From NCBI GenBank assembly GCA_012295275.1, contig CM022666.1, positions 11,133,077 to 11,197,076 on the forward strand: a stretch of 64,000 nt of DNA, written 5' to 3'. The first letter of the stretch is position 1; every line of letters begins with the position of its first letter. The position numbers and the translations under genes were made by a program. The notes beneath the pieces are model-generated. The model was not told the DNA's origin. It worked only from the letters and a program-made list of their open reading frames with translations, and did no database searches. The DNA comes from Chrysomallon squamiferum. Taxonomy: Eukaryota; Mollusca; Gastropoda; Neomphalida; Peltospiridae. Shown one piece after another: positions 9,701-48,729 of the stretch.

Positions 9701-10821
9701 ATATTGTAAAAAATGTATAAAATAAAATATAGACATAGAAATTTTAATCTGAGGTAAGTCTATTTTTAGTACAGTATTGTGCCAGATAGTTTAAAATTCT
9801 ATTGTATTGAGTAATCCATGTTATCATGGCATCACCTGCATTTCAACAGCCACACACACGCACACACACAGAATTAGAGACAATTACCTAAGTTTTCCTC
9901 AGTTTTTATTTCCGTTTCATCATCTGTGATATGAAATGCATCATGAGATTGTTATTTAATAACAATAATGATTAGATATAGTTTTAGTAAAAAAATGATA
10001 TAAAGTAATTATTCATAAGCTTATGTAAATAGCCCATGATTGTATTAAAGGGTGATTATTATTATTATTCCAACACACACACATGAACAAGTTATATAAG
10101 TATGTGCCTTCTGTCTAAATATATAAATATCTAAAAAAAGATAAACACACAAAAAATCTTCACTAAACCTGTTTCAAGTGTTCTAAAATTTTGTATGAAA
10201 GAAATGATTAATATGGAAAGGAAGTAATACAACTCATGATCTATAGCTGATGGGTCAAACAAACAGAATGCAATTCCATTTTTCTGATTTTACTTCAGGT
10301 GGCTAAAGAACTGTGTGTATCTCTAACAACGACACATACTTCTTTATATAATATCTTGAGTAAAATTAGTTTATTTGTTAAAGATGACACGTGATTATAT
10401 CATCTAACATAACATAAATGGGCATAAACTCTCATTTACAAACTGATATATGCTAACAGTCTGTATAACAACTGCAACAGTAATATTTATGAATACCATC
10501 ATTTTATTGATAAATATTAAGCATATCTGTAATATTTGACATTGTATCATTTATTCAGTTCAAATTTTAAAGACTTGATCTTATGCAAAGTAAGATGATG
10601 TGATGAAAAAATATATATAAAAGCAAATATGTAAATAACTGCTAAAGAAAAAACCAGAATACATAACAGATAAAATGATAAAAGGTTTGGTACTTTATGA
10701 ACTTTGTTTTTAGAAGTTGCAAACCAGTGGATAATGGTTCATCCAAGATGATTGTTACATCCAACATTATTAAAGATGACAGCATTATGTAAAAACATGA
10801 CATAAATAAATAAAGACTGAC

Positions 10822-12209
10822 CTTTCATACTGCAGTACTTCTTTGGTTGGACTTGACATTCCACCAACAGCAGCAGCTAGCGGTCCAACGGAATCCTGAA
10901 GAGCTTTGGTCAGCTGTATGGATTCTGGCCGTCCACCAGCCTGGATGGGATTAGCAACATTAGTACCTGGAATAGTGCAATGTTCTCTACAGACCTGTGA
11001 CTGATTGACATCAGTCGCATATTTGTCTGTATTACCTTCCACTGGAATACCACCCACCTGTTGTATAGGTGCAGAATGATCAGGAGTCTTTTGAATGTTT
11101 TGAGGTCGATGCTGACTTTGGCTCTGATCAACCAAAGGATTTTGCATAACAGTAGGGGTGCCTGCATGTACCTGAGGCACCGTCATCCCAGGCACTGGGA
11201 CCGTGGAAGTAGGAACTGTTGGATTGGCATTAGCAGTTGAATGTACATGTATCCTAGCTCCAGTCAGAGAATTTGGAACTGGTACCGTTTGGGGCAAACT
11301 CGGAGTTGTGATTGTATGAGGTGCTGACACACCTGGTACTTGCACCGATGTCTTCTGGGTTGGGGGGTTGATGATTGGTATGCCCGAAGGAGGCAGATTT
11401 ACAGGTTGACATGGGGGCTGTAACGGAACATGGCAGTCTGCGGCAGGTTGTCGCTGTGATACTGGTGGAACTGCCATTGGAATTGGCTGACTAGGTATGG
11501 GTATTGCTGGGTGGATTGGTATAAACGACTCACCCGGTTTAGCATTAAACACAGGTGTGCTAACAGCAGCACCATCCCCTACCACCGGAATATGAATGCT
11601 TTGGCCTACAGTGCCCACAGCACCAGCTGTCAATGGGTTTTTAGACGGATCATCAACACCATGGACATAATGAATGGAACTAGAAGCACTTGAATTATTT
11701 GAATGTACATGCACTTCCTCTGAAGCTTTTGACTCAATTTTCTCCGGAGCTGTGTTAAGGTAATCGTGACATAACCATCTTCCTCTTCTAAATGGTTCTT
11801 TAGTCTCGATTTTAACAACACGGAATCGTGATTGAGCATCAGGTTTCGACACTTCCTCTGGCGTCAAAACACCTGGAGTTAAAACACTGTCTGGGTCATT
11901 ATCTGTAGCTTTAGAACAATCTAATACTTCTGAACTTAAATCTTCTGTATGACTTTCATCCAAGTCGTCCATACTATCGCCATCAACGTCAGCAGTCATG
12001 TCCCCACTCCCTCCCCTCTGCGTGTTCTTTGTAACACTTGTTATTTTAAACGTACTTTTTTTCTTTGGCACATTGTCCGAATTAGCCCGCTGACCACTTT
12101 GTCCAGGCTTGAGATCATCAATACGTACATCCGTGTCCTTTACTGACTGTGTTTGAGACTGATTATTTAATGTAACAGCCATTTTATCTTCGCCAATCTG
12201 CTCAGCCAT
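10822..12209 (-). CDS. TSC22 domain family protein, long isoform (bunched-A type), first coding exon, partial
   Basis: A large single exon of 462 codons plus 2 nt starts at the only plausible ATG (12209, context AAAATGG). It ends at a donor AAG|GTCAGT (donor bases 10821-10820), in phase 2. Two motifs define the long TSC22D proteins: KKKSTFKITSVT (about residues 49-60) and SRFRVVKI...EPFRRGRWLCHDY (about residues 117-140). The remainder is acidic (residues 70-110) and then a long Pro/Val/Gln/Thr-rich disordered region. The C-terminal TSC box, a leucine-zipper dimerisation segment, must be on a later exon and was not found in the lower coordinates, so the gene probably continues past the left edge. 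Known family members (TSC22D1, D2, D4, fly bunched-A) are cytoplasmic or nuclear regulators of growth and stress signalling that bind Madm/NRBP1. The specific orthologue cannot be assigned. Confidence 0.85.
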
Positions 12210-12269
12210 TTTCAGGCTACAGCAGTGATAATGGCAGACATTACACACTTTGCATGCCGGGACGGAAAC

Positions 12270-12278
12270 TACGTCATA
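12270..12278. promoter_or_regulatory. CRE-like site in the TSC22D-like upstream region
   Basis: TACGTCATA lies about 60 bp upstream of the minus-strand start codon, in a locally GC-richer stretch (12240-12340). It resembles a CREB/ATF half-palindrome. The placement suits a proximal promoter, but one short motif is weak evidence. Confidence 0.25.
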
Positions 12279-13057
12279 ACCTACTCGGAACGACCTACGT
12301 CTGGTAACCTTTGACCTCCAGAATAGAGCAAAGTCGTATTGACCGATATTGTCTGACTCATTTCACACACTGAAAGAAAACCAACAGTTTAAGAATTACA
12401 AAAATATGATTGTCTGTTTGTACTGTAAAATCATTTTATTTTTAAACACTTAAAAAACATAAACGGACAAACGGAAAAGAAACTGCGTTAGAACAAGACA
12501 CTTAAGACTAAGAGTACAGCAGAAAATAAACATATTTAATCCTTTAGCAAGGTCAATATGACGGAAAATACCAATAGATCAATGGTTAATGAACGTGCCC
12601 TTTGGTGTGTGTGTATTTCAAAGGTTACCAGGTTCGAAAACCGTGAAGAGGATGCGTGTATTTTAATTTTTAAAAATTTTAAATCTTGTTTATGTGCACT
12701 CTTTAAACGAGTGACATTTTTCACCAATGGAAAAGTCTGAAGGTGTCTTTAACAACCTTCTCTCCTCTTTCCCTGGAGAGCTATTTCCAGTATTATCACG
12801 TGAAGGCTAGGTGAGAATCAGACGAAACCAGCCAACATTAATGTTCTTATTTTTATCTTTCATAATTAACCTATAACAATAAACAAACGCGATAATAATT
12901 TTAACAAATTAGAATATGATCAAATTAATTAATTTCTTTCTTTCTTTTATTTTTATTTTTAAAATAATAAATTAGATCACTAATCATTTCATTATTAACT
13001 TTTACGTTATTCTTTTTAAGATCTGCTAAATAGCCAATTTTAGTGTTTTATTTAGCT

Positions 13058-15327: not shown

Positions 15328-15959
15328 ATGCCCTGTAATAAATACATAAACCCTAGTTCTATCGTCCTGATTTTCTTAATTATATGTAAAATATATATTT
15401 TGAATTTTCCATCTTGCAGAATTAAGTGAAACTATTTTATTTTAAAATATAAAAGAAATATTATTATTATCATCATCATCATCATCATAATCATTTTATT
15501 ATTTTATTTATTTATTAATTATTTATATTATTTATTATTATAATATATTTGCGGTACAGATGAAGCATTAAAAAATACAAGAAAAATAAAAGAAAGGAAA
15601 AAACGTGAAGTATGTTTGGAATGTTCTGTTTCCGCATGTTTGTATTTGTTACTTGAGGAAACAAACACATGTTAAAAATGTTGAAAAAAGAAAGAAATTA
15701 ATATCTGGCCGCGTTATAGTAATGTGTGGGTGTGGCTATATGTAAATTCTAGTAATAGTAATAGTGGTAATAGTAGTAAAAAGTAGTTGTCACTAATAAC
15801 GTGTAGTATTATAACAATAGTTCTGGTAGAAATAATTATATATGGTATTTTAAAAAAAATTATTTGTTAAAAGCAACAATATGATTTTCTTTTAATTCCT
15901 TATTTAAGGTATTTAAGTGCACTGATTGTTAATTAGTTATTATTTTTTAGGTAGTTGTC

Positions 15960-16964
15960 ATGGGTGATGCAAAGACACTTAATGGTATGCTATGCGCCAA
16001 AATGGACCCTTGTTCTGACGTCTTCTGTGAACGATGTCTTGTCAGGCCTGCGCAGAAACTGACGAAACCAAAAAATATCAACTGCCAGTCATGCAAGAAA
16101 CCCATACCACCCCCTAAACCGGCGCACCTTTCATACAAAGGTTCGGATTTTCAAACCGCGTTGGTGTTAAAGAGTCTAATAGACAAACTCAAAATATACG
16201 AAGAACACGAAAAGAAAGGAACACTTGTGGTCTGTCAACGAGTTCTTGAAGATCAGCTGTCTTCAGAGGTAACTGATGATACAGAGAAAAACAAAGACGA
16301 CATTGACAACACTGACATGAAGGCAATGTGTCAACGACATCCAGATATGGAGGTTGACTGCTTCTGCTCAGATTGCAGTGTCCTCATTTGCAGCCATTGC
16401 ATCGTTGACGGCCATGAACAATGTTCTAGCCGTCTGACGATCTTGGAAGCAATTGCTTTTCAGAAACAGAACATTTCTGAAGCAGGGAAGGAAAAACGGC
16501 GCGAGATGAGTCAATTCGGTCTCAAAACGCAATTTTCCGTGGGCCTGATTGAAAACGAAATTGAAAATTTTACACGACAGGCTGAGAAAGCGAAGACTGA
16601 AATTCGTCTCCAGGCACAGAGGCTGATACGACAGATCCACGAGGAAGAAGAGAAGTTTCTGAACCAGGTAGACAAGTGTTACAATGAAGACATATTTAAA
16701 CTAAAGTCGTTAAAAGAAATCTTTGACAACTTTCGTCAGTGTGGCGAGGCCTTCATGCCGGTCATTCAGAACCAGAAAGACGTTACGATGGAATATTTGA
16801 TTAAAGTTGACCTATTTACGAGAACCATGTCAAAGTACAATAACGTCAGCGAGCCTCAAGTACCATCCCTGGAGTTCCGGCCGAGCAGACGACAGCAAAT
16901 CAATCTTGGTGTGATAACCATTTTCCACGACGATTTTGAAGAAATCAACGAAGTTCTGGATTAA
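15960..16964 (+). CDS. TRIM-like B-box zinc-finger protein with a degenerate RING, 334 aa
   Basis: The exon follows a clear acceptor (15949-15950), and the ATG sits in the context GTCATGG. The N-terminus holds the second half of a RING-like finger: C18-S-D-V-F-C23-E-R-C26 and C42-Q-S-C45. The usual His of C-x-H-x2-C is Asp, and the first C-x2-C pair is missing (only C12 precedes). A B-box follows at residues 124-155 (C124, H127, C136, C139, C144, C147, H152, C155), then a coiled coil (about 160-250) and a short tail. No SPRY, NHL or other C-terminal domain is present before the stop. TRIM proteins are ubiquitin ligases in signalling and innate defence, but this one probably lacks RING ligase activity. 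It could be a regulatory or scaffold paralogue from an expanded family. Neighbour: divergent from the TSC22D-like gene. Confidence 0.85.
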   Translation: MGDAKTLNGMLCAKMDPCSDVFCERCLVRPAQKLTKPKNINCQSCKKPIPPPKPAHLSYKGSDFQTALVLKSLIDKLKIYEEHEKKGTLVVCQRVLEDQLSSEVTDDTEKNKDDIDNTDMKAMCQRHPDMEVDCFCSDCSVLICSHCIVDGHEQCSSRLTILEAIAFQKQNISEAGKEKRREMSQFGLKTQFSVGLIENEIENFTRQAEKAKTEIRLQAQRLIRQIHEEEEKFLNQVDKCYNEDIFKLKSLKEIFDNFRQCGEAFMPVIQNQKDVTMEYLIKVDLFTRTMSKYNNVSEPQVPSLEFRPSRRQQINLGVITIFHDDFEEINEVLD

Positions 16965-28679: not shown

Positions 28680-29261
28680 TATGATACTTTACAGAAATCA
28701 ATACTGAAAAATAATAATAAAAATAAAAATACTACTGAATTAATATTTTCTCAGTGAGCTAATAAAACTATTTTATTATTGTAATGATAATGTGAGAAAC
28801 TAAATAAGAAGACATTTCTAGCCTACTGTTTTAATAATCAAAATCTATCACTACCTGACAACACCAATATTTGTTATTAAGAAATAACTGAACAATATCA
28901 AGATATAAATGATAACGCAATGAAATTATGACTATGAAAATTATTGTCAAACTAACAACTGGCATTATTACAACAGTGTTAGTTCTTGCACTTTGAAGTG
29001 ACTTCAGAAGTTTGGTCTAAAAATTTTAGTTTCTAAATAATTATAGCGCTATTAGTATTATTATTAGCCTGTTGTTATTATGAAATATAAACCATTACCT
29101 ATAAAACATGGGCGTAGCTGCAATAAACACATCTTGCAATTTAAAAAGACAATTAAAGTAATAAGTGTGAAACTGCAAAACACTGTAACAAACAATATAA
29201 TTAATACTAAATCATTGATGTCAAAGAGACTAATCAGAAACTTGGAATTTGACAAGTTCTT

Positions 29262-29272
29262 ACCTGTCTAAA
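29262..29272 (-). other. CEP63: Donor of a probable non-coding first exon of the CEP63-like gene
   Basis: On the minus strand GACAG|GTAAGAAC gives a consensus donor (bases 29263-29262). It lies upstream of the acceptor CTGTAAAG that precedes the start codon by seven bases. A leader exon from about 29264 towards 29700 would connect the start codon exon to the shared promoter region. Its 5' end is not defined. Confidence 0.4.
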
Positions 29273-29790: not shown

Positions 29791-32700
29791 ATGTTGCTAG
29801 TGTTAGATGACAAACACAAAACACATTTGGAATTTCTTAACAGTGTCAGCAGTGATGGTACTTTTTAACAATATTTTAATAGTTTTCTTTTGAATTTGTT
29901 TCAGACGACAAAACTAGTAATTATAAATATAATTAAAATGATATTTCAGTAACTGAGTAAGTAATCCCACGACCAGGACTGCAAATCAGAGCAAACAATA
30001 TTAAATATAACATTATCAACATATGTCGATACTGTTTAATATAACCAACAATTAACAACGATTAATAATATGTTCATAAAATTACGCTGTACATTGATAT
30101 ATCCAAATACGGATTATAAATTTAATTCAGTGACAGGCTTGGTCAACACTTTCGACTTTGTACCGGGAATTTTTCTTGGCGCTCACCCAAAAAGCAGCAA
30201 ACGTCCGACACCCACTTATCCAAAATTAATGGATTGAAAGGAATCATATAAAATTAGATGTTTTAAACAAATAAAATGTCACATCTATTCAGTATTGATC
30301 TATTTTGTGTTCAGTGTACAAATACCAGAACATTTCAGTAATTGTATAATAAAAATAAAAATCTCGGTCATTGAGCAACCAATTCAAATAATTTAGAAAG
30401 TGTCATTTGCAATTGTTTTCAAAGTATAATCATAACTGGAACATATACCTTTTTAAATACATATGTACATACTATTAAAAACATTTTTGGGGCCTCCAAG
30501 GAAATTTCTCAGTATGCCAGGTCAGTTTGTTACTGATTAAATATGTTGCACAATAAAAGCTGTCGAAACTTTTTGGATAACATTTTAAAATTGTAATAAA
30601 AACAAAACCCACAGATTGTCATAAATATATTTAATTTTTTTTTTTTTAAATATATATTTTTTTATTATTTGAAATGTAAAATCTTTAATTAATTTGAAAG
30701 AACTGATGTCAAAAGAAGGACATGGCTTTCAAGATACAATATTGACTAGACATTTTGTTGTCAAAAATATGGTGTGATTGATAGGTTAACTGTCTAAGAT
30801 CAGATTATCAGACATCAAAGTAATTAATGATTTTTAGAAAACAGCTATTCACAGTAAAATGTGTTTTCCGTTTATTCATTGTAGTTTTCATCATTGTTTT
30901 AAGTACATTTAGCTAATAGAATTACTGAAAAGTTTTAAATGCTAGAATCAAATATACCTGGAGTAAAATGGACATCATATTTAATTATTTTACATCTGGA
31001 TATAGACCAGATACACTGTTCTAATAGAATTACAGAAATATTTTGAGTAAAATTAACATTTTATTTGTTTTGTTTTTCTTCTGGAAACAGATTGGGACTG
31101 GGACTGAAATAAAAATATGAATTTTACTGACAGATCTACAATTTATTGTTAAAGCAAACATTTTATAAAATTACTTTAGTATTAACTGGTTTAGAAATGA
31201 ACTGATATAAACTGATCTTCCATGACACAAAGATAACAAAGACTATTTATCATTAGCTCTTAAACTTTAAGAAAAAATAGAGGTTGATTTACTATCATCA
31301 GAAATAAATTATGTAATGTTTTTGTTTTTGATTTGTACAGTTGTTCAAGAATTCTGCAGAATAAGCTTGGAGTTTATTCGTAAGGGAGTTAACCCTAAAG
31401 TTTATCAAAAAGCATCGCGTAAGTAATACTTAACTGAAGATTTGTATGAGAAAATATAGCAAGTTCATTGTAATTTGAAAACATGTTTTGACATTAATAT
31501 TAATAATGGCGAAAAATAAAATATTTTGAATTCACATTTAACAAAAATTAATACAATCAAATAAAAATATTCCTTTTAATTTTCTGTCTAACTAAATGAA
31601 ACAAATCATTTATTTTCAGAAAAACTGGATGTTGCCACAGAAACAGTTCAGCATGGAGTTGAAGGCTTGATGTATCTTTTAACTGAAAGTTCTAAACTTC
31701 TGGTACTGAAACATAGCTTTATATTTATATATTTTTACATACTACATAAACATATTAGCATAAGCTAGGGAAATTTGAAAAGGAATTTTTATTCCATATT
31801 GTCATTTTGTTTTGATGTTAATATTTTATCATTATTTTTGTTTGGAAACAAACTAATGATAAAATGTTATGATAAAAGAATGTACATAGAATTAATTATA
31901 CAAGCTAAGATGATCTCATTATCTAGGATGTCAAACTTTGATGCAAAAATATACATATTATCCCCAAAAATATATTTAGGATACATTTGGTCTCTATATT
32001 TTTTTCAAAATTTAAAATATTTTTTATTCTGTAATTAAATAATAAAATGATTTAAAAAATTCCAGTAGCCCAAGCCATTAGCCTTTATATTAATTTTATT
32101 AAATTTTTTAAAAAATATTATTTTTACACCCAAGTTATCATTTATTATTCAGAATGACTTGTCACTGTTTATAATAAAGTATGACACATTTAAATGTTGC
32201 CATTTTTTCCCTTCACAACTGGAATCATGATGCCTCAACTAGAGAAAAATGGCAGAGCCCTGATATTTTTGAAAATAATGTTTTTGTTATTAAAATTATT
32301 ACTATTTAAGCATGGATAGTAATAATAATTTAAAAAATAACAATAATCATAATTAAAAAAAATAAATTGGAAGTGAGTGGAATATAATTTGACTTTTTCT
32401 ATAGAAGTAAATTTTAAGGCTCTGTTGGTTGATTATTCATTTTTAATACAATTAAATAAAATGTATGGTTCTTTTTTTACAGTTGAATGAAGTTGATTTT
32501 CAGGACTCGATTTTAAGTTTAGAGTTTGATGAAAGTGTTAGAAAAACTCTGCTGGAGATGTATCTTGAGAACAGACGTGAAATTAGGGCCATTCTTAATG
32601 AACTGGCAATGGATTTACCACATTACCACAATTTAGAATGGCGATTTGATGTCCAGGTAGGTTTAATATATTACGATTTCATTTAATTTTATCTGCCATG

Positions 32701-34764: not shown

Positions 34765-37700
34765 TTATTTCTTTCCTTCCACCATTATAACATGATAACC
34801 AAACTTTGTTTTCACTGGTGGGTCAGTGTAATTGGGTTTATCAGTTGTACTAGTGGGAAGAGCAAATGCTGCATCTTGAAATGGTCCAACCATGCTTCCA
34901 CGGGTCATCCATCCTAGGTCACCCTGAAATGGATCAAAGTTCAACATGAATAAATTAAAGGCAGTTCTGAACATACCACAATATACAGAAATCATGAAAT
35001 ATAAATATTTATGTTCAAACTGTGCATGTGTGTGCATACATCCTCCAACAGAAAAAGCATTTGAAATAGGGACATAAATGCTAAGATAATAATCATAATT
35101 AATTAATTGCATTCACTGTTTATAATAAAATAACTAAATATTGTAAATGACAGAATTTTTAAACAATGAGAACCTTATTTTTTTAACCTGGGTACAAAGA
35201 AATCACTTTCTAAAACAGCATACTTCCTCTTTAACAAAAAAAAAGAGAAAAAAAGAAGGAAAGACAACAATAGCAATATAACACTAACAACTGATGACCA
35301 TTTAATAACAAACAGAAAATTACAAATTCTTATGTGTCTCATACAGAACATAATCACATTTTGTAAAAAGACACTTGACCTTTTAAAACTAATTTCCAGT
35401 ACTATCAAACAACAAAACACTAATTCTAATATAAAAAGCTTGAATATAGACCCACAACCTATTCTAATGAACCTGAACCCCTGGCCTATGAAAAGAAGTA
35501 GACAATCCACTGGCCTTAGAATAACTGGACATTTTAAATTACACACACCTGACAGTTTCCTGTTGGAATATAATACACGTCATTAAAATATAGCTAATAA
35601 ATCTACAGCTAATAAAGTTAAATATGTGATTATGTTCTGTTTTCCCACTTAAAAAAAAAAAAAAAAAAAAAATTCTTAGCAACATATACACATATACACT
35701 CATGGGCCCAAAAACCAGACAATGGAAAAGTGGGGTTTGATTTCACATCTGAAAACTACCAATAAACTCAGCAATATACAATCTGGCCATCTTAGAAATC
35801 ACCTCTTAGTATACACTGCAGAACTGGTTGCCTATATCAGGGCTGTTTTGGGTCATTCAACAATAACAAACCGACTGTCATATTCTCCAACAGCCTTAAC
35901 TCTGTAAATCAATCTAATTTGGACATTCCACCAGACCAGACCTATTCAGTAACATCTTCACAAATAAATATTACATAGTATATAACAACAAACAAATTAA
36001 TCATTGAGTACAAGTTGGTATTATAGGAAATGAACTTGCTGATCACTATGCCTAAGAATAACTTAATATCATAGACAAAGATATCTGTACTGACATACAC
36101 TCAGGGAACACATAAAATTGCACCCAAATAATGGCATAATGAATAGAATAACACCAAAAACATCTGGTTCTTTAATATTAAGCCACTTAACCAAACCACC
36201 AAAATCACACTTAGTAAAAAATTACATAACAACAATCTTACCAAACTTGGAATTAGTTATTTCACCAATCTAAACACAACCCAATTTAATACAAAATAGA
36301 TTTTCTGTCTGAATTATGCCAATGACTGTCTAATGTTAGATGACACATTCAATAAATTAAAAAATGAATTACCCCTAAAAATATCTTGGCACTGACAATG
36401 AAAAACAGAGACAATCCTTGCTGCTGTGACAACTTACATCATCAGCACAAAATACAAACTTTGATTCAGACAAATAAACAGTCACAAATGATTAATTAAA
36501 TAGATGCAAAAACATAAGATAAAATAAAACAATCACATACAATTTCAAAAAATAAAAATAAAACGATTTCAACATAACAAACAAAACAATAATGCAAAAC
36601 AAGTAAATTAATTAAACAACAAAAAGGACAAACTGCACGAGAACAACACACTCTTGTGTCTTGTCAGGCACAACAAGAACCCTTCTTTTCCCTCTGCCAA
36701 CTCTTTTCTGCAACAGACACACCACCTGGCTTTGTCAGAGAGTGTGACTGCTGCAAGGGTGCTTCACAACAGATTGCTCTGATTAGCACATTCTTTTTCA
36801 TTTACTCAATCATGTAATTAGGTGAAAGCAAAACGTGATAGCCAGTGGTCATGTGGGGAACCAATGTTAGTAAATGGCATTTTCTTTATGTAAGAGTTTG
36901 GTAAGCCACTGTCTTTTCTTTCTTTGATGCAGATTACTATTTTTATATTAGCTCCCCGAATGACATTAGCTCGTATCGTCATTAGAAACAGATAATTAAA
37001 TTTTTATTTTACAGGTAGCTGTATTGTGTATTAGTATTATTTTTACCATAATTAAATAGTTAATATACCTTAACTCGTTGTGATTATTTCTGTAGAGGAA
37101 AGACAGTGGTCCTGTGACAGAAGTCTGCTTCCCATTTCTTGTGTGTGGGAAGATGCATACAAAACAACTCTCACTGCTGATTACTAAAAAGTACTTGACT
37201 CAGGAGACTGTCTACTTTTAAAAATTATTTGTTACCTGGAAGGTAAGTGATGGAACCCTTTCATGTCTGTGTTGTTTTATGTATGCTGATAATGGGGATT
37301 TAAACACTTATGGTAGTGAGTGTCAAATGTTGAGTAAATTAATGTCACCAAAATTCATACTGAAATGAACGATAAACACCATGTGTAATCTCTGATTAAT
37401 TATCTTCTACATCTCTTCTATATGGTTACAGCACAAAGCAGATGCCCTGCTTCTGAGCCAAGGAGAGGTTTCTCAAGCACGTAAATTTGCCTGACACGAT
37501 ATAGTTTGAAAATGATAAAATAGAGAAAGCGCTCTTATATATGTTTTTACAACTGTACACAAGGAAGGATAGGTTCAAAATACATGGTTTAAATTAACCA
37601 ATCGTTGTGAAATATCGAATGTTCTAGAATGTTGGTGAATTTCCACTATGTGAAAATTTAGGTGAAAGGTTAAGTTGAAAGTTCATAATTATTTCATAAT

Positions 37701-38801
37701 GTTATTATATGAAAGACTAAAAGTTTTAAAACAGTATGTTTCGAAGTCGATAGCACAATGGTTAGTGCACTCAGTTATCAACTGGACGATGCAGGTTCAA
37801 TCTCTGTCAGTGAGGAGACACTGCATGGTGTAGTGGTAACATTGTGCCTTGGTGGGCACAGCTGGAAGTTCTGTTCCCCTGTAAGTTACTGATCCGACCA
37901 CTTTTGATAAAGTAAATACTTCTTTGTTCTTCTTCTAGGTGTTGTTACGGTAATCTGGTAATGAAGACACAGAAATAAAGTCACGGGTGTCTTAAGACCA
38001 TCTACATTATGACTTACAATTTGTCATGGCATATTTTCTATGACGGTGAAAGTTTTGTGATGAAGTTACCTGAAGAAAACACGTGAAGACGCTCACCTGA
38101 AAAAAAACACACCTGAAAACACAACAATGGACTGTTCATGCCCATGCTGACCTCTACAAATGCATGCACACACACTGACATACACACATACAAACACACA
38201 TGCACACAGACATTTACCCCTTGTCTAGCTTTGTCTTCACTGTATTGAGCTGCCACTTCATTGAACTTCATCCCACTCTTGATTTTTTCTATTGCTTCAA
38301 GAGCTTTAGACTGTTTTTCACACAAAATGTGTCTCACCTTAAATATGAAATCAAAAAGATTGTAAATATCACACTCACACACACATATACAAACATTTTG
38401 AATAAAAAAATATTTGTGATAAGGGTTTTTTTCAGAATTAGCTTACTATTTAACTGAATCAAAAGATCTAAAATGTATTACTGCTTCCTCTAATTATGTG
38501 TTATACTGCTACAGGTATGCTTTAAATGCACTTTGTATCATTAATCGTCATAAAAGAATGTTTTGGATATTTATATATTCAAACAAACAGTTATAAATGC
38601 ATAGACTACAGTTGACAAACAAGCATAGAGTATTATTACAGTAAAGTCTGTACCATCTTTTAGAGTGAGGCTTACCTTAACTGCAGTTCCACCCTTTGCT
38701 TGTTTTCCATCCCCTTTTCCACTGCCACTATCACCCTTGGAACTGTCCTTACCTCCTTTAGCACCTCCTTTTGCTCCACCTCCTACCTTATTTTTCGGCA
38801 T
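34765..38801 (-). CDS. PIN4: Parvulin-14 peptidyl-prolyl isomerase (PIN4), complete, three exons, 134 aa
   Basis: Exons: 38676-38801 (42 codons), 38218-38337 (40 codons), 34765-34923 (52 codons plus TAA). All are phase 0 with GT-AG junctions. The N-terminal 37 residues form a Gly/Lys/Ser-rich basic tail, as in human Par14, where it supports nucleic-acid binding and nucleolar or nuclear location. The parvulin domain follows: VRHILCEK with the first active-site His, [39 protein letters not shown], and the closing [12 protein letters not shown] with the second His. The length matches the vertebrate protein (131 aa). Par14 isomerises prolyl bonds and takes part in pre-rRNA processing and chromatin. 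Intron 2 is about 3.3 kb and carries transposon remnants. The ATG is the first in the exon. Confidence 0.95.
35700..36490 (+). mobile_element. Decayed non-LTR retrotransposon fragment with RNase H motifs
   Basis: On the strand opposite PIN4, inside its intron 2. The open segment 35722-35907 includes [11 protein letters not shown], the alpha-helical AE motif of retroelement RNase H. About 200 bp further on, 36020-36055 encodes [13 protein letters not shown], the GxxGNExAD motif of the same fold. Frames between them are broken by stops. A Cys-rich stretch follows at about 36411-36430 (NPCC), like the end of LINE ORF2 proteins. No reverse transcriptase region was recognised, so this is a 5'-truncated dead copy. 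Confidence 0.65.
37080..37200. repeat. Second copy of the dispersed repeat seen near 3.5 kb
   Basis: Shares the TGTGGGAAGATG.ATACAAA word and the following GCTGATTA/AAAAAGTA order with 3460-3515. It lies in PIN4 intron 2. Confidence 0.5.
37741..37925 (+). mobile_element. tRNA-derived SINE, apparently with two tRNA-like units
   Basis: Unit 1 has a box-A-like GATAGCACAATGGTTAGTGC (about 37750-37769) and a box-B-like GGTTCAATCTC (about 37795-37805). Unit 2 has CATGGTGTAGTGGTAACA (about 37833-37850) and GTTCTGTTCCCC (about 37868-37879). The spacing within each unit fits an internal RNA polymerase III promoter. The arms do not fold into a normal tRNA, so this is a SINE head rather than a tRNA gene. 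It lies in PIN4 intron 2. Confidence 0.55.
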
Positions 38802-41976: not shown

Positions 41977-42531
41977 ATGAAGATTGTTACAATTTTCTTG
42001 ATGACTATTTTTCTGAAACTGGACGCTTCAGTTCGCATTTGTACGAATCCAAGCAATTTTAGTTTTCTCCGTCGAAACAAACAAATGACTGGTTTAAGTT
42101 TTGATGCGATAGAAAACACTGGTCTGGTGAAATGCGCGGTCGAATGCCAGATCCGGAAAAAATGTAATTCATTCAGTTTTGAGTATGTCAGTGGAAAATG
42201 TGTTCTGTTCCAGAGTACAATAGAACAGTCGTACATCACAGAGAAAGGTGGAACCGATTTAAGTAACATAAAACACTGGCCCGCAGTAAGTAATCTTATA
42301 ACCTGTCTGTTTTTCTGTTTATGTTTCTGTCAGAATAACTGCCTAATTGTCTCTCTGTATTATCTCTCTCGCGCTCTCTCTCGGTGTATTTTACATACTA
42401 ACATACACAAACACATAGACACACAGACACACAGACACACAGACACACAACTTACACACACGATTATGTACAGCCAACCTCTGTTTTACGACGGTTCACT
42501 TTACAACTAAGCCGTTTTTTAAATTAGGCAA

Positions 42532-42602
<71 letters not shown>

Positions 42603-45600
42603 GTAGAACAAATTTGGTTTAAAGAAATGATGCAAATATATATATTTTAAAATATTTTCAAAATTTAAAAACACGGTCATCTACTGTGAACATAGTCGAT
42701 TTTAACAGCCAGATTTAGACTTCGCCTACTGAACAATTCCGTCAACCTGTTTACGATAGTAGAATGTTTTCTTGTACATGCCGGTGCTCTAATTAGAAAT
42801 TGTAGTAGAATCGACAACAACTGGGAAAGATTTGTGACTTTGTTAGGAGGAACTTAAATGAAGCATTAGCTCCTTATTATCGAATACTTAATGAAAAAAA
42901 CAAAAAAGAAATTCCTATCTTGTAAAGTCGCAGGAAGAATTACTGTTGAATAAGAACCGGAAAGGCGCAGTATATATTGCAGTCCGTTTTCAGACTTCTG
43001 TACACTGACAAGCTATACAGGGGTATTTATGTAATAATTATTATTTGTCATTTTATGTTAATTTAACATGAAATAAAAAATTTATATTAAATTTAATTGT
43101 AAAAAAAAGTATTAAGATAGTTTAGTTAAATGAATACAATAAACAGAAGTACCTCGACTTATGAGTTTAATTCGTTCCGTGACCGAGTAACTCTATTTGC
43201 TTATATAAATCAATTTTCCCAAATGAAATTAATTGAAATACCATTAATCCGTTCCAGCCCCCAAAACCACCCCATTTGTTTGTAACGTGATTTTAAATAA
43301 GAAAAATGTATTTATAAATTACAAATATTGTATAAAAAACAAAATAAAAGAGAATGTAAAGAAATAAATTGGTTTTGTAAAGTTTGTTTATCTTGGAGAT
43401 CAGACAAATTATTTTAACGCCTTTGGCTGGAGTTTCAGCCTTTATCGACTCCTTCTGCTTCAGTATGCTCGTACTGCCTAGCGAAGTCGCCTAATTCACG
43501 CCTCGCTCATGTTTTTCTATTATTTTATGCTTTAATTCAGTGGACATCATCCGCTTCTTCTTCTCATCACTGTCCTTTGCACTCATTTTCTTACGTTCCA
43601 TGGTCAGAAAAAAGAAATTTTGCTAAATACTGCAAAAAACGCGAACACAACACAACAGAGATGTTCCCACGGCCAGGTAACTACGTGACGTAAACGAGTG
43701 AGACGCGGGATGCTGGCCAGATGTTGTGTTGTTCGATGCGCCAACTAGCGGCGGCATATCTGAAGCTCACTCGTAACTCGGATTTTGGCTCGGAATTTTT
43801 AATCGAAACCACTGCTCGAAACTCGAAAAACTCGTAAATTGGGGCACTCGTAAGTCGAGGTACCACTGTAGTTTCGGATGTGTGGAACGTATCACATGTT
43901 TGCATGACGTAATTGGTTTGCTTTATGTCAATTAAAAATGCGACTTATTTTTCAGAGATTGGCTGGAATCTGTGGTGACAATCGTTGTTCAGATGATAAA
44001 ATCTGTCGTTTGAGAGGCAGTTCGAGTAAAACGTGTGTAATTGCATGTATGTTTGTACCTTTATTTAATACTACTTGTATTATTTCATATATGTTTGTAC
44101 CTTTATTTAATAATACTTGTATCATTTCATGTTTGTTTGTACCTTTATTTAATACTATTTGTATTATTTCATGTATGTTTGTACCTTTAGTTAATACTAC
44201 TTGTATTACTGTATGTATGTTTGTACCTTTATTTAATATTACTTGTGTCACTGCATGTATATTTGTACCCTTATTTAATATAACTTGTATCACTTGTATA
44301 CAATAATAGTAAGTGAATTTAGAGTATTCTGGAGATTTATATAACATTTGTGTCGTTATTTTGATCGGGCCGAAGAATAACGGTTTTAAAGTACTGTAAA
44401 TGCTCGAGCTAGGTCTAATTGGCATGATGGATATGTCACACACACACACACCCACACCCACACCCACACCCACACCCACACCCACACTCACACACACACA
44501 CACACACACACCACTCCGAAATCAATGAAATATATTTCATTTAATGACAAATCCCAGATGAATTCAAACCGCCTCTTAGATCCGCTGCATTATCTGACTT
44601 TGTTATGTTTTTCCCAATGATAATTTTGATGATATATCTATAAATTATTTTATACACCGAAATGACAACCATTCTGTTTCTCTAGAGAAAATTCATTTTG
44701 CAATCAATATGATTCTTTTATTTGTCTGAAAAATGTGTTAGAAAGTTTCCCTGAATCATTTAAATTATGCATTAATGTAAAAGAAAACATAATCAATGCC
44801 TAGTTTTAATCGTGGCAGCTGTCGTTTTGGTTTTGCTCTGTCTCGATAACAACAACAACATCAGTAATAGTAATAGCAATAGATGTAGTGATAGTAGTAG
44901 TAGCAATAGCTGTAGTACTAGTAACTGTAGTAGCAGCAGTTATAGTAATAGCAGTAGAAGTAGTAGTATAAGCATCAGGGGTAGTAGTAGTAGTAGTAGT
45001 GGTAGCAATAGCTATAATACTAATAATTGTAGTAGCAGTAGTAGTATTAGGAGCAGTAGCAGCATCAGTAGTAGGATCAGCAGTAGTAATAGTAATAGCA
45101 GTAGCAGTAGAAGCAGTAGCGGTAGTACTAGTACTAGTAGCAGCAGTAGTAGTAGTAGTAGTAGCAATAGCAGCAGCAGTAGCAGAGGCAGTATGTGGAC
45201 TAAACCTGGTCATTTATTAAAAGGGATTAATAGATTATTCAGAAATATAAAATGTAAATATTAGAAATACTGAAAACTCTAATATTAAATTACTGAAATA
45301 AATACGACAGTTTTAATTGTTTTATGTTTACTACTAGACTGTCCCGATCCGCCTAAGGTGGAAAATGCCACGCCTAATTTCACGACTACCTTTATGAAGA
45401 CGAAAGTCGGAAGTCGTCTGTCGTACACATGTGATAAAAACTTCAAACCGGAAGGAGAAAGAATGTGTCTGAAGAACGGAAGCTGGTCTGACTTCCGCTG
45501 TGTTTTTGGTACTGATCTTTCAGTTATTTTATTTTATTTTATTTATAGCGTTGACGTCACGACTGTAGAAAAATCGCGGCGCATAGAAATTTTAAAATTA

Positions 45601-47402
45601 TATTCTTTTCTTGTTGTTGTACTTCGTTTTAAAATATGCTAAAAAAAAAAATAAAATTAAAATAAATAAATAATAATAAAAAAAAAAAAATAAAAACAAA
45701 GAAACAAACAAATAAAAGATAAAAATAAAATAAAAATTTAGAAACATTACTTGGAGGAAGTCTACAGAATAAACGATTTCATCTTAACCTGAGTAGTATA
45801 TATTAAGTGGTTTATATATATATATATATTTTAATTAATTAATTAATTTATTATTATGTATTTTGTTTTTGGCTTGCTATTATAAAAAATAATATAAAAA
45901 TATGTGATTATATATTTTGTCATACAAAATGTTTAAAATAAAATAAAATAAAATAAAGTGGATTAAAGTAAAATAAATTTCCTGTAGAAAATGATCTGAA
46001 TTTTTATAATCTTTCACAGACTGTGGACCACCTCCTTCCATTTTCAATGCAAAACCAAATTTTACGGACGATGAAAATCTGAATACTACACTAGGGTCCT
46101 CTCTTAGTTACATCTGTAATGATGACAGAGCCATGATTGGTCACGTGACCTGTCAGCCAACTGGGTGGACAAGACTTGCCTGTCTGGAAGGTTCAGTATT
46201 AAATATTTAAAAAAATATAGAAAATGTAAAATGAGGCCAGTTTAGTTTTCGTCTTTATTTTTAAATATATATATATATATATTTTTGTTTAGTAAGTAAT
46301 AGTCAATGTAAATGTGTGTGTGGGATGTATGTGTTTGTGTTGTTCTTTTTTTTGGTCGTAGAATAAGTTTCTCATTGTTATTCTATTCATTCACTGTTTC
46401 ATTATTACAGAGATTACAAGTTGTTCTGAACTAAAATCATGTAACAGTCAGTACACCGACTTTATTACGACAAATTAAGACTCTATTCGCACTTTATAAT
46501 AGCTCTGTATCTTTTGTCATAGACATAACAAGCTGTTCTGATCTGCTGAAATGTAACAGTTCGTACACTGACGGCGAATACTGGTTAACTGCACCGGCAG
46601 TTGGCGGTAAAGGCGTTAAAATATATTGTGACGGTATGAAGTCATTGAACCCCTCCGAATATGTAAGCCTTCAAAGAGAATCGTATGCAGACAACAGAGG
46701 TGACGGGACCACAGACTGCGGCAAAGCCTATTCAGGTTCCGACTTTATATGCTGTGGAAGACAAACATGGAAAAAACTTAAACTGGAGGATCTGAAAGTG
46801 AGTTTATTTTAAACACGGCAAAACTTTATTTGTTATTTGTTTGTTTGTCATTTAATTTACGGTATGAGCAGCTAATATATTCAGACCTTGCAAGGCATCC
46901 CTAGTTATAGATTTTTATAAAATACCTAGCGTCATTCTGTGTTATTTACAACAATTAAATATCGTGAAGGTGGACTGATATTACTTCCTTTATGGTGATT
47001 TTATTTCGTCACTTTTAATTTGAAATAAAATGTGACAAACTAAGTAATTCATTGGAGAAAACCAGTCGTTTTGAAATACAAAACACGAGGTTGTTCATTG
47101 CTCATGATGCGAAAACCAAGAACTTTTTGGCATAAATTATATTTATTGTTAAATATTTAGTCTGAGAAACCCAAATCAGACAGATGTGTGAAAAGAGAGT
47201 TGAAAAGGCGGATGGACAGTGGAGCGAGAGTACGGGACGGATGTGTGGATGACTTAACAAACAAACAAACGAATAAAAATTGTATTAACATATCTTACAT
47301 AGCACTATATCCAAACAATTCTTCTTTTCATTTTTATTTATTTATTTATTTATTTATTGTTTGTTTATTGTTGTTGTTGTTGTTATTATGATTATGATTA
47401 TG

Positions 47403-47442
<40 letters not shown>

Positions 47443-47656
47443 TTTTTAAATGGCAGGGACTGGATGTTGTTAGAAAAGTACAACATCCATTTACAGAGTC
47501 AAATTCATGTGGTAGTCTCACTTTCTTCGCTACTGCATGCGACTGTGGAAAGAAGGAAGAGAAATGCACCGGGATAGCTGACTACAGTGTTTTCCACCTC
47601 AACTTGTCAGGCACTGGCTTCATTATCGATCCTAACGTAATAAAATTAACAATTTA

Positions 47657-47724
<68 letters not shown>

Positions 47725-48729
47725 ATTTGGAATATATTTACTATAATTATTTATAATGTTAGTAACTGCAAGATTGTAACAGCTATAATGTTATTTTCAG
47801 AAATGTTTTAAAATAATTATAATGTTATTTAAGCAAGATTTTAACATATTTATAATGTTCTTTACATTTTTATTTCAAGTTATTTACAAAATTATTTTAA
47901 CATATTTATCAACATAATTTAAAACGTTATTTTAACATATTTATGAAATTATTTACAACACATTTCTCATATTATTTAACAGCAACAATTTAGTCTGGTT
48001 GGTGGTATATCGGCCTCAATGAGAGTCGAGAGACAAGATGTGAACAGAATTCTCACAGTTAAGATGATAGGTTCTGCATACTGGTGCTCATCGCTTGGTC
48101 CCAAATCAAACAAGTTTGCTCTACAGAAGGACCCGCGTTACGGTAAAGGATTATTTTAATTTAAATTTTACATTCTACTGTTCATGTAGCCCAGGTATCC
48201 TGTGGCGGTAAATAGCTCAGACGGACGTTTGGCTGGACATCGCTGGTTGTCCTCCAGAGCTAGGTATATAGCAATTTTTGGCTAATCTTTACGGTTGGCA
48301 ACGATTCCGGTTACTAAACGCATTTTACAATAATTTTGGTTTTACATTCGCTGGTACCATATTGAAATAACACCGATGTTTTTGTTTTGTTTTTCTTCTA
48401 CTTCTTTTTTTTTTTTTTTAAAACTGTCTTTTGATTTTAAGTACAAAATAAGAATGAATAATCAGTTTAAAAGATATTCTGTAAGTGTCATGGCGCCATA
48501 TAATTTTCTCCGTGCCCTTAACTTTAAAACGTGGCTACGCCCCTGAGTATATATATATATGTACATTTGTCTGCCTGCCTGCCTGCCTCTCTGTCTATAT
48601 GTGTGTGTGTGTGGCTGTGTATTACGCATATATTAAAATGTATATATAGATCCCTATTGGTTTTTTTATTCATTTCTTTCAGATCCACCTATCGATTCAG
48701 CGACAGTACCAGAATGCCAGCGGACGTAA
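41977..48729 (+). CDS. Secreted PAN/apple - sushi - sushi - GON domain mosaic protein, eight exons, about 463 aa
   Basis: Exons: 41977-42285, 43956-44034, 45338-45508, 46020-46190, 46523-46797, 47457-47636, 47983-48142, 48683-48729. Phases agree throughout. A signal peptide (MKIVTIFLMTIFLKLDAS) favours this ATG over the in-frame one at 41950. Domains: PAN/apple about 20-103 (C...C.VEC...C.SFSFE...C); a short C-G-x3-C-x5-C motif 106-117; sushi/CCP about 130-186 and 187-243, each one 171-nt phase-1 exon with four Cys and the usual W or G near the end; and a GON domain about 244-448 (TDGEYWL, VKIYCDGM, PSEYVSL, ATACDCG, LNLSGTGF). GON is known from ADAMTS9/20 and nematode GON-1, but no metalloprotease or thrombospondin repeat is present here. 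It is probably an extracellular or haemolymph binding protein. The stop (TAA) overlaps a GTAAGT, and an alternative last exon may exist at 49572-49777. The domain calls are firm; the function is unknown. Confidence 0.82.
42535..42596. repeat. (TA)n microsatellite
   Basis: About 30 TA units in intron 1 of the PAN-CCP-GON gene, preceded by an (ACACAG)n stretch at 42408-42450. Confidence 0.95.
43146..43872. mobile_element. Tigger-like (pogo / Tc1-mariner superfamily) DNA element, internally deleted
   Basis: The left end reads CAGAAGTACCTCGACTTATG, and the reverse complement of the right end reads CAGTGGTACCTCGACTTACG. These are near-perfect terminal inverted repeats about 725 bp apart. The right end is followed by TA, as expected for a TA target. 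The interior holds a minus-strand remnant of a Tigger-type transposase N-terminus (next entry). At this length it cannot encode a full DDE domain, so it is non-autonomous. Inserted in intron 1 of the PAN-CCP-GON gene. Confidence 0.75.
43380..43601 (-). pseudogene. Truncated Tigger-like transposase N-terminus
   Basis: From ATG 43601 the minus strand reads a basic stretch with MSAKDSDEKKRMM, then ELKHKIIEKHERGV, then an in-frame TAG, then ILKQKESIKAETPAKGV in the same frame. This is the helix-turn-helix (CENP-B-like) start of Tigger/TIGD transposases. About ten residues between the two halves are lost or altered, and the DNA-binding CENPB and DDE regions are absent. Non-functional. Confidence 0.7.
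44041..44295 (+). repeat. 42-bp minisatellite, about six copies, abutting a splice donor
   Basis: The word GTTTGTACC recurs every 42 bp (44051, 44093, 44135 and so on). The array starts only 6 bp after the donor of the second coding exon of the PAN-CCP-GON gene (44035). Because 42 is a multiple of 3 and no stop occurs, the exon frame runs open through the array to about 44306, encoding repeats of the type CMFVPLFNTTCIIS. I treat it as intronic, but read-through would be possible. Confidence 0.85.
44436..44512. repeat. (CA)n / (CCCACA)n microsatellite
   Basis: CA units interrupted by a block of about seven CCCACA repeats, in an intron of the PAN-CCP-GON gene. Confidence 0.9.
44860..45195. repeat. 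Imperfect (AGY)n trinucleotide tract
   Basis: About 330 bp of AGT/AGC units with AAT, GGT and AGA variants, just before the first sushi exon (45338). It gives long Ser-, Val- or Thr-rich open frames on both strands that are artefacts of the repeat. Confidence 0.9.
46411..46485 (+). pseudogene. Broken duplicate of the first GON-domain exon
   Basis: After an acceptor-like TTACAG, the sequence AGATTACAAGTTGTTCTGAA parallels the real exon start at 46523 (GACATAACAAGCTGTTCTGA). It continues in register through TGTAACAGTCAGTACACCGAC (real copy: TGTAACAGTTCGTACACTGAC). It then diverges and meets a TAA (GACAAATTAA) where the real exon reads on into GEYWL. The copy lies about 110 bp upstream of the functional exon. 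Confidence 0.8.
47661..47721. repeat. (CT)n microsatellite
   Basis: About 30 pure CT units beginning 24 bp after the donor of coding exon 6 of the PAN-CCP-GON gene. An (ATT)n tract (47408-47441) similarly precedes that exon. Confidence 0.95.
48190..48262 (+). mobile_element. Possible tRNA-like SINE fragment
   Basis: GGTAAATAGCTCAGACGG resembles a tRNA box A, and CGCTGGTTGTCCTCC, about 35 bp later, weakly resembles a box B. It lies in the last intron of the PAN-CCP-GON gene. The fragment is short and diverged. Confidence 0.25.

Follow-up and report, generated by a model that had tools for sequence, protein, structure and literature searches.

An eight-exon gene for a PAN, sushi and GON protein

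The window analysed here is a stretch of 64,000 nucleotides (nt) of Chrysomallon squamiferum DNA (contig CM022666.1, positions 11,133,077 to 11,197,076), and all coordinates given below refer to it. On its plus strand, at 41977-48729, lies a gene of eight exons. The encoded protein is composed of a likely signal peptide, a PAN domain, a short cysteine-rich linker, two successive sushi modules and a GON domain. Each of the seven introns is bordered by GT/AG and phase-compatible, and the reading frame is open across the joined exons from the ATG at 41977 to the TAA at 48727-48729.

Exon 1 (41977-42285) carries the ATG, the likely signal peptide (about residues 1-18, as judged by eye) and most of the PAN/apple domain, and ends in phase 0 at a GTAAGT donor. 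The linker that follows PAN, with four cysteines, is encoded by exon 2 (43956-44046; phase 0 in, phase 1 out), located between the acceptor TTTTTCAG and a GTATGT donor. Each sushi module occupies one symmetric phase 1-1 exon of 171 nt with four cysteines, exon 3 (45338-45508) for Sushi 1 and exon 4 (46020-46190) for Sushi 2. The GON domain begins in exon 5 (46523-46797), which includes a start resembling fibrinogen-like and COLFI domains (see below), continues in exon 6 (47457-47636; phase 0-0, within the Pfam GON match) and ends in exon 7 (47983-48142; phase 0 in, phase 1 out). Exon 8 (48683-48729; acceptor CTTTCAG, phase 1) supplies the final 15 residues and the TAA. The junction phase is therefore 0 between exons 1 and 2, 1 at the three boundaries PAN block/Sushi 1, Sushi 1/Sushi 2 and Sushi 2/GON, 0 and 0 within GON, and 1 ahead of the short last exon.

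The first-pass annotation of this DNA, made from the sequence without database searches, had already proposed an eight-exon model. Its start at 41977, its stop end at 48729 and its exons stand, except for the end of exon 2, which it had placed at 44034, probably 12 bases early. We moved this end to 44046 because a cysteine is kept there and because the donor between 44046 and 44047 (GTATGT) yields SKTCVIAYCPDPP, aligning with KKCVVVYCPSPP of a Gigantopelta aegis protein (P0001). The end at 44034 was dropped, as it loses a cysteine that this protein and a Lottia gigantea protein (P0002) both have, and an end at 44032 was dropped for a phase misfit worked out by hand. With the better donor the protein would probably count 467 amino acids (aa) instead of 463, with GON at about residues 248-452 instead of 244-448. 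The Pfam, PDB-sequence and full-length homology searches reported below, as well as the alignments with P0001 and P0002, used the 463-aa version or its pieces.

Domain composition of the protein

Domains were called as Pfam families above their curated gathering cut-offs; five Pfam families matched the protein at E up to 1. A C-terminal GON domain had been proposed from the strings TDGEYWL, IYCDGM, PSEYVSL, ATACDC and LSGTGF, all of which are present in the translation, and the Pfam result agrees with it, with GON (PF08685) far above its cut-off of 22.6 bits (62.1 bits and E 8.7e-17 for the whole 463-aa version, 64.5 bits for the domain alone). The match spans profile positions 2-175 of 199 and ends at residue 417 of that version. 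Exon 5 by itself reached 42.5 bits (E 8.7e-11).

Ahead of GON, PAN_1 (PF00024) matched residues 34-92 with 30.8 bits for the whole protein (cut-off 21.4) and 34.6 bits for the PAN block alone, and Sushi (PF00084) matched two stretches with 47.5 bits (cut-off 20.7). Sushi 2 is 37% identical to Sushi 1, and the sushi pair matches by sequence the complement-control modules of factor H and decay-accelerating factor in the PDB, with a best E of 1.8e-08. Neither a metalloprotease (reprolysin) domain nor thrombospondin type 1 repeats occurred among the Pfam families matching the protein at E up to 1. The protease-free order of PAN and two sushi modules before GON, and the symmetric phase-1 sushi exons, had both been described in the first-pass annotation and are borne out by these results.

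The 467-aa protein contains 29 cysteines. Exon 1 contributes five, exon 2 and each sushi module four, and the GON block twelve. Its most hydrophobic 19-residue segments fall within residues 1-22. Beyond residue 30 the best 19-residue hydropathy mean is 0.93, and no second stretch suggests a membrane anchor. Hydropathy thus fits an N-terminal signal peptide without a membrane anchor, and the protein is likely secreted.

Two gastropod relatives share parts of the architecture

A search with the full-length protein retained two relatives among 2145 candidates at E up to 0.001, and a two-sequence profile search retained the same two among 3756 candidates. Both are gastropod proteins, from Gigantopelta aegis (subclass Neomphalina) and Lottia gigantea (subclass Patellogastropoda). 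A search with GON only (residues 248-467) retained none of 420 candidates even at E 10.

The G. aegis protein (P0001, 327 aa), named ‘macrophage mannose receptor 1-like’, shares the signal peptide, PAN, the linker and Sushi 1 with the C. squamiferum protein. Identity in this PAN-Sushi part amounts to 106 of 195 aligned residues (54%). Taken separately, exon 1 is 56% identical over 91 aa and Sushi 1 is 64% identical to the G. aegis sushi in a 59-aa tblastn match, the first few residues of which lie in the intron. The two proteins differ in what follows, since P0001 carries a C-type lectin domain (Lectin_C) where the C. squamiferum protein has Sushi 2 and GON. The similarity stops at the point where, in the C. 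squamiferum gene, Sushi 1 gives way to a phase-1 intron.

The L. gigantea protein (P0002, 315 aa, hypothetical protein LOTGIDRAFT_167205) has a linker with matching cysteines and one sushi directly before a GON domain (62.4 bits in Pfam). The linker cysteines align in both relatives (RIAGPCENNSC...KKCVVVYCP in P0001, HLARKCENHNC...YQCIHFACP in P0002), and the C-terminal ends of the C. squamiferum and L. gigantea proteins are alike (SATVPEC and DATDPAC, respectively). Identity between the two GON domains is 28% over the domain, and exon 5 shows 43% over 58 aa. P0002 differs from the C. squamiferum protein in its overall distance (26% identity over 61% of the query), in having one sushi and not two, and in the lack of a clear signal peptide, as judged by eye. 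UniRef labels it as a Sushi domain-containing protein, so a sushi-GON protein is already public. The C. squamiferum protein is a probably shuffled extracellular mosaic in which GON occurs outside ADAMTS; it is not a categorically new kind of protein.

As the eight exons were joined from genomic sequence, and as the PAN-Sushi part occurs in G. aegis without GON, one could ask whether a PAN-sushi gene and a neighbouring GON gene were wrongly joined. Against this, P0002, itself a gene prediction, joins linker and sushi to GON, and the intron between Sushi 2 and GON is phase-compatible and measures 332 nt only (46191-46522). Because the L. gigantea protein has the same linker-Sushi-GON order, the sushi and GON exons very probably belong to one gene. 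That their linkage arose as a prediction artefact is unlikely, and we regard a fusion of two neighbouring genes as highly improbable.

Repeats inside the gene

A 42-nt minisatellite of about six units occupies 44047-44298, its first unit starting exactly at the corrected exon 2 donor. The units correspond to 14 codons each and begin with GTATGT, ATATGT, GTTTGT, GTATGT, GTATGT and GTATAT. The frame of exon 2 stays open through the minisatellite to 44303, so that alternative donors would add in-frame steps of 14 residues.

Within the intron that precedes GON, a 59-nt stretch on the plus strand (46402-46460) partially duplicates the beginning of exon 5, acceptor included (73% identity to 46514-46572). 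Its own frame reads EITSCSELKSCNSQYTDFITTN and ends at a TAA (46476-46478). It was rejected as an alternative exon, as the frame stops at 46478 and no GT occurs from the point where the copy ends up to this stop; GT pairs exist inside the copied stretch 46402-46460.

A decaying or unexpressed gene was considered. The partial copy stands directly before exon 5 and would introduce a premature stop if read through, the minisatellite starts at the exon 2 donor, and protein searches returned no close GON-bearing relative. On the other side, the eight exons are open with GT/AG introns, four cysteines are kept in each sushi, and the matches of P0001 in the window sit on exons 1-4, with short or weak spill into the flanking intron. 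We consider a decaying or unexpressed gene improbable.

The start of the GON domain resembles fibrinogen-like and COLFI domains

The first 36 residues of GON (46525-46632) resemble the starts of fibrinogen-like domains and of fibrillar-collagen C-propeptide (COLFI) domains, below the respective cut-offs. With the fibrinogen-like YCDxxxxGGGW model NF040941, exon 5 scored 25.2 bits (cut-off 30; E 1.2e-05) and the whole domain gave E 5e-05. With COLFI, exon 5 scored 17.8 bits (cut-off 26.2; E 0.0022), the GON domain E 0.006 and the whole protein E 0.017. The same place in the L. gigantea protein gave 21.3 bits with COLFI (E 1.9e-04) and 18.3 bits with NF040941 (E 0.0018), again below the cut-offs. 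The resemblance thus recurs at one position in both proteins and with two libraries. A cysteine, a leucine, the Gly-Glu-Tyr-Trp stretch and the V-K-I-Y-C-D strand align with the GON start; in contrast, the C. squamiferum GON lacks the GGGW motif after YCD, and the rest of the domain gave no match to either family in these searches.

No solved GON structure turned up in the PDB sequence searches. When a two-sequence GON profile was compared with the PDB, the C-propeptides of collagens III and I were among 8 matches (E 0.024-0.047). Structure models were obtained for the L. gigantea protein from a three-row alignment with exons 5 and 3 of the C. squamiferum gene (mean predicted local distance difference test score, pLDDT, of 46.2) and for exon 5 from a two-row alignment with P0002 (mean pLDDT 44.1, too low for a fold search). 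Adding exons 6 and 7 as further rows gave an alignment that was discarded, as MAFFT aligned both largely to the sushi instead of GON. At the GON start the models show a helix followed by two strands, with block pLDDT values of 72-79 (L. gigantea residues 111-150) and 53-63 (first 40 residues of exon 5). A fold search with the L. gigantea model returned 50 entries, nearly all complement-type modules over about residues 51-138. Fibrinogen or COLFI folds were absent among these 50 entries, which were filled by sushi, and this absence excludes nothing. We regard the relation to fibrinogen and COLFI as a lead and not as a family assignment; it offers a testable idea on the fold and origin of GON.

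A probable secreted binding protein with a proposed exchangeable head

Taken together, these results suggest that the locus holds an intact eight-exon gene of gastropod type for a secreted, disulfide-rich PAN-sushi-GON protein, assembled by phase-1 shuffling and acting as an extracellular, non-enzymatic binder. We put the probability of this reading at about 60%. Proteins or glycans are common ligands of PAN and sushi modules, which may dock or anchor the protein here. Their PAN-Sushi part could be viewed as a reusable stalk, which in G. aegis bears a C-type lectin head. This stalk, 54% identical, carries its lectin where GON would stand, which suggests that GON, too, is a binding head, exchangeable with others, with a partner that might reside in the haemolymph or the matrix.

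Exon shuffling as the route of assembly, also proposed in the first-pass annotation, gains support from the comparison: every boundary between PAN block, sushi exons and GON block is in phase 1, and P0001 has the PAN-Sushi part with a lectin head. We infer shuffling because a conserved stalk bears different heads and the likeness to P0001 breaks off at a phase-1 intron; the blocks would have been joined at phase-1 introns. A secreted recognition or matrix protein, the function first guessed for this gene, appears most likely from its modules.

Several observations weigh against this reading. The gene model is a prediction from genomic sequence, two relatives only emerged from 2145 and 3756 candidates, and the complete PAN-Sushi-Sushi-GON order was met in the C. 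squamiferum protein alone. In P0002, Pfam sees GON alone, with no PAN and no sushi at E up to 1, and its one sushi was assigned through alignment with the C. squamiferum protein and through the predicted fold. As to the head, every fibrinogen or COLFI score on the GON start lies below its curated cut-off, a GAD-like model weakly touches the same start (E 0.029), and unrelated icosahedral plant virus capsid chains matched another part of GON (E 0.042-0.047), nearly as strongly as collagen, in the profile comparison with the PDB. The structure models of GON are poor, and the rest of the domain beyond its start was not usefully modelled.

A role in the shell matrix or another biomineral matrix was also considered. 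The relatives are gastropods, and three shell-related papers mention the shell matrix, Lottia gigantea and the sushi domain together. The term GON domain is absent from these papers, and the protein has no acidic or repetitive low-complexity region, as judged by eye. Such a role seems rather improbable, and a secreted binder remains our preferred reading.

A broader view would place the secreted PAN-sushi-GON binder in a gastropod protein family, secreted and serving immune or symbiont recognition, in which one PAN-sushi stalk bears swappable heads (C-type lectin, GON, perhaps others). GON would then be a distant head of the fibrinogen superfamily, taken up independently by ADAMTS9/20/GON-1 and by these mosaics. 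We consider this view doubtful, and a role of the C. squamiferum protein in symbiosis is only a thought. The excerpted text of a study of G. aegis (PMC7895826) reports many C-type lectins and other recognition receptors, with no mention, in that excerpt, of sushi, PAN domain or mannose receptor.

Other features of the window

Outside the gene, the plus strand was scanned at E up to 0.01 through 125 of 135 frames of at least 44 aa that were past a complexity filter. A both-strand check took in 10 of 183 filtered frames, and the minus strand was covered to that extent only. Neither Rfam nor tRNA scans of the window gave a match.

On the plus strand, a 67-aa frame at 29068-29268, 13 kilobases upstream of the gene, matched THSD1_N below the cut-off (19.1 bits against 27) and may be due to chance. 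A 337-aa frame at 15951-16961 (plus) has a B-box-like match below the cut-off (17.8 bits against 24.1) and, by eye, a RING-like cysteine pattern; it is possibly TRIM-like. The start of a COMM domain was matched below the cut-off at 32456-32683 (plus). COMM was matched by two of the 125 plus-strand frames (best E 5e-07), so a COMMD-type gene is likely present in the window.

On the minus strand, a PPIC-type rotamase match above the cut-off was found at 34768-35112 (positions 71-115 of the Rotamase_3 profile) and another, below the cut-off, at 38041-38442 (positions 35-65); the two are perhaps exons of one gene. A 525-aa frame at 10788-12362 (minus) has no Pfam match at E up to 0.01. It contains KKKSTFKITSVTK and SRFRVVKIETKEPFRRGRW stretches, which resemble the long first exon of TSC22-domain proteins.

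Comparison with ADAMTS proteins

According to an excerpt of published work (PMC4349717), GON otherwise forms the C-terminal end of ADAMTS9 and -20. This description would be compatible with a remnant of an ADAMTS9-like protease gene that had lost its catalytic half. The protein contains no metalloprotease or thrombospondin type 1 family, however, and none was found in the 125 plus-strand frames outside the gene at E up to 0.01, a scan that shorter exons can escape. In addition, the N-terminal match to P0001 already begins at the signal peptide. We consider such an origin exceedingly improbable.

An excerpt of a study of gon-1 worms (PMC4517882) reports that a signal sequence with the GON domain rescues their secretion defects, a protease-independent function showing that GON can be functional in the absence of a protease. 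Like that of C. elegans GON-1, the C. squamiferum GON might then be a protease-independent export factor of the endoplasmic reticulum, working mainly in the secretory pathway with PAN and sushi binding cargo or glycan. Several points, none of them a direct test, speak against this role: no C-terminal retention signal is seen by eye (the protein ends in PECQRT), the GON domain has diverged, with 28% identity even to L. gigantea, and the stalk resembles that of the lectin-type protein P0001. We regard it as unlikely, and prefer extracellular binding because of this lectin-type sister protein.

GON is poorly understood, and the literature naming it, as far as titles and starts of abstracts go, concerns ADAMTS proteins or other clinical, developmental or method topics. 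One paper that contains the terms GON domain, sushi and PAN together (PMC6714394) deals, to judge from its title, with fibulins and ADAMTSs. Titles and starts of abstracts gave no account of GON with PAN or sushi outside ADAMTS, in a body of literature that mostly does not extend to subscription journals. The C. squamiferum protein has its C-terminal GON domain in common with ADAMTS9, ADAMTS20 and C. elegans GON-1. It differs from them in that their metalloprotease and thrombospondin repeats are absent from it, and a natural GON protein of 467 residues without a protease would be a small system for asking what GON binds.
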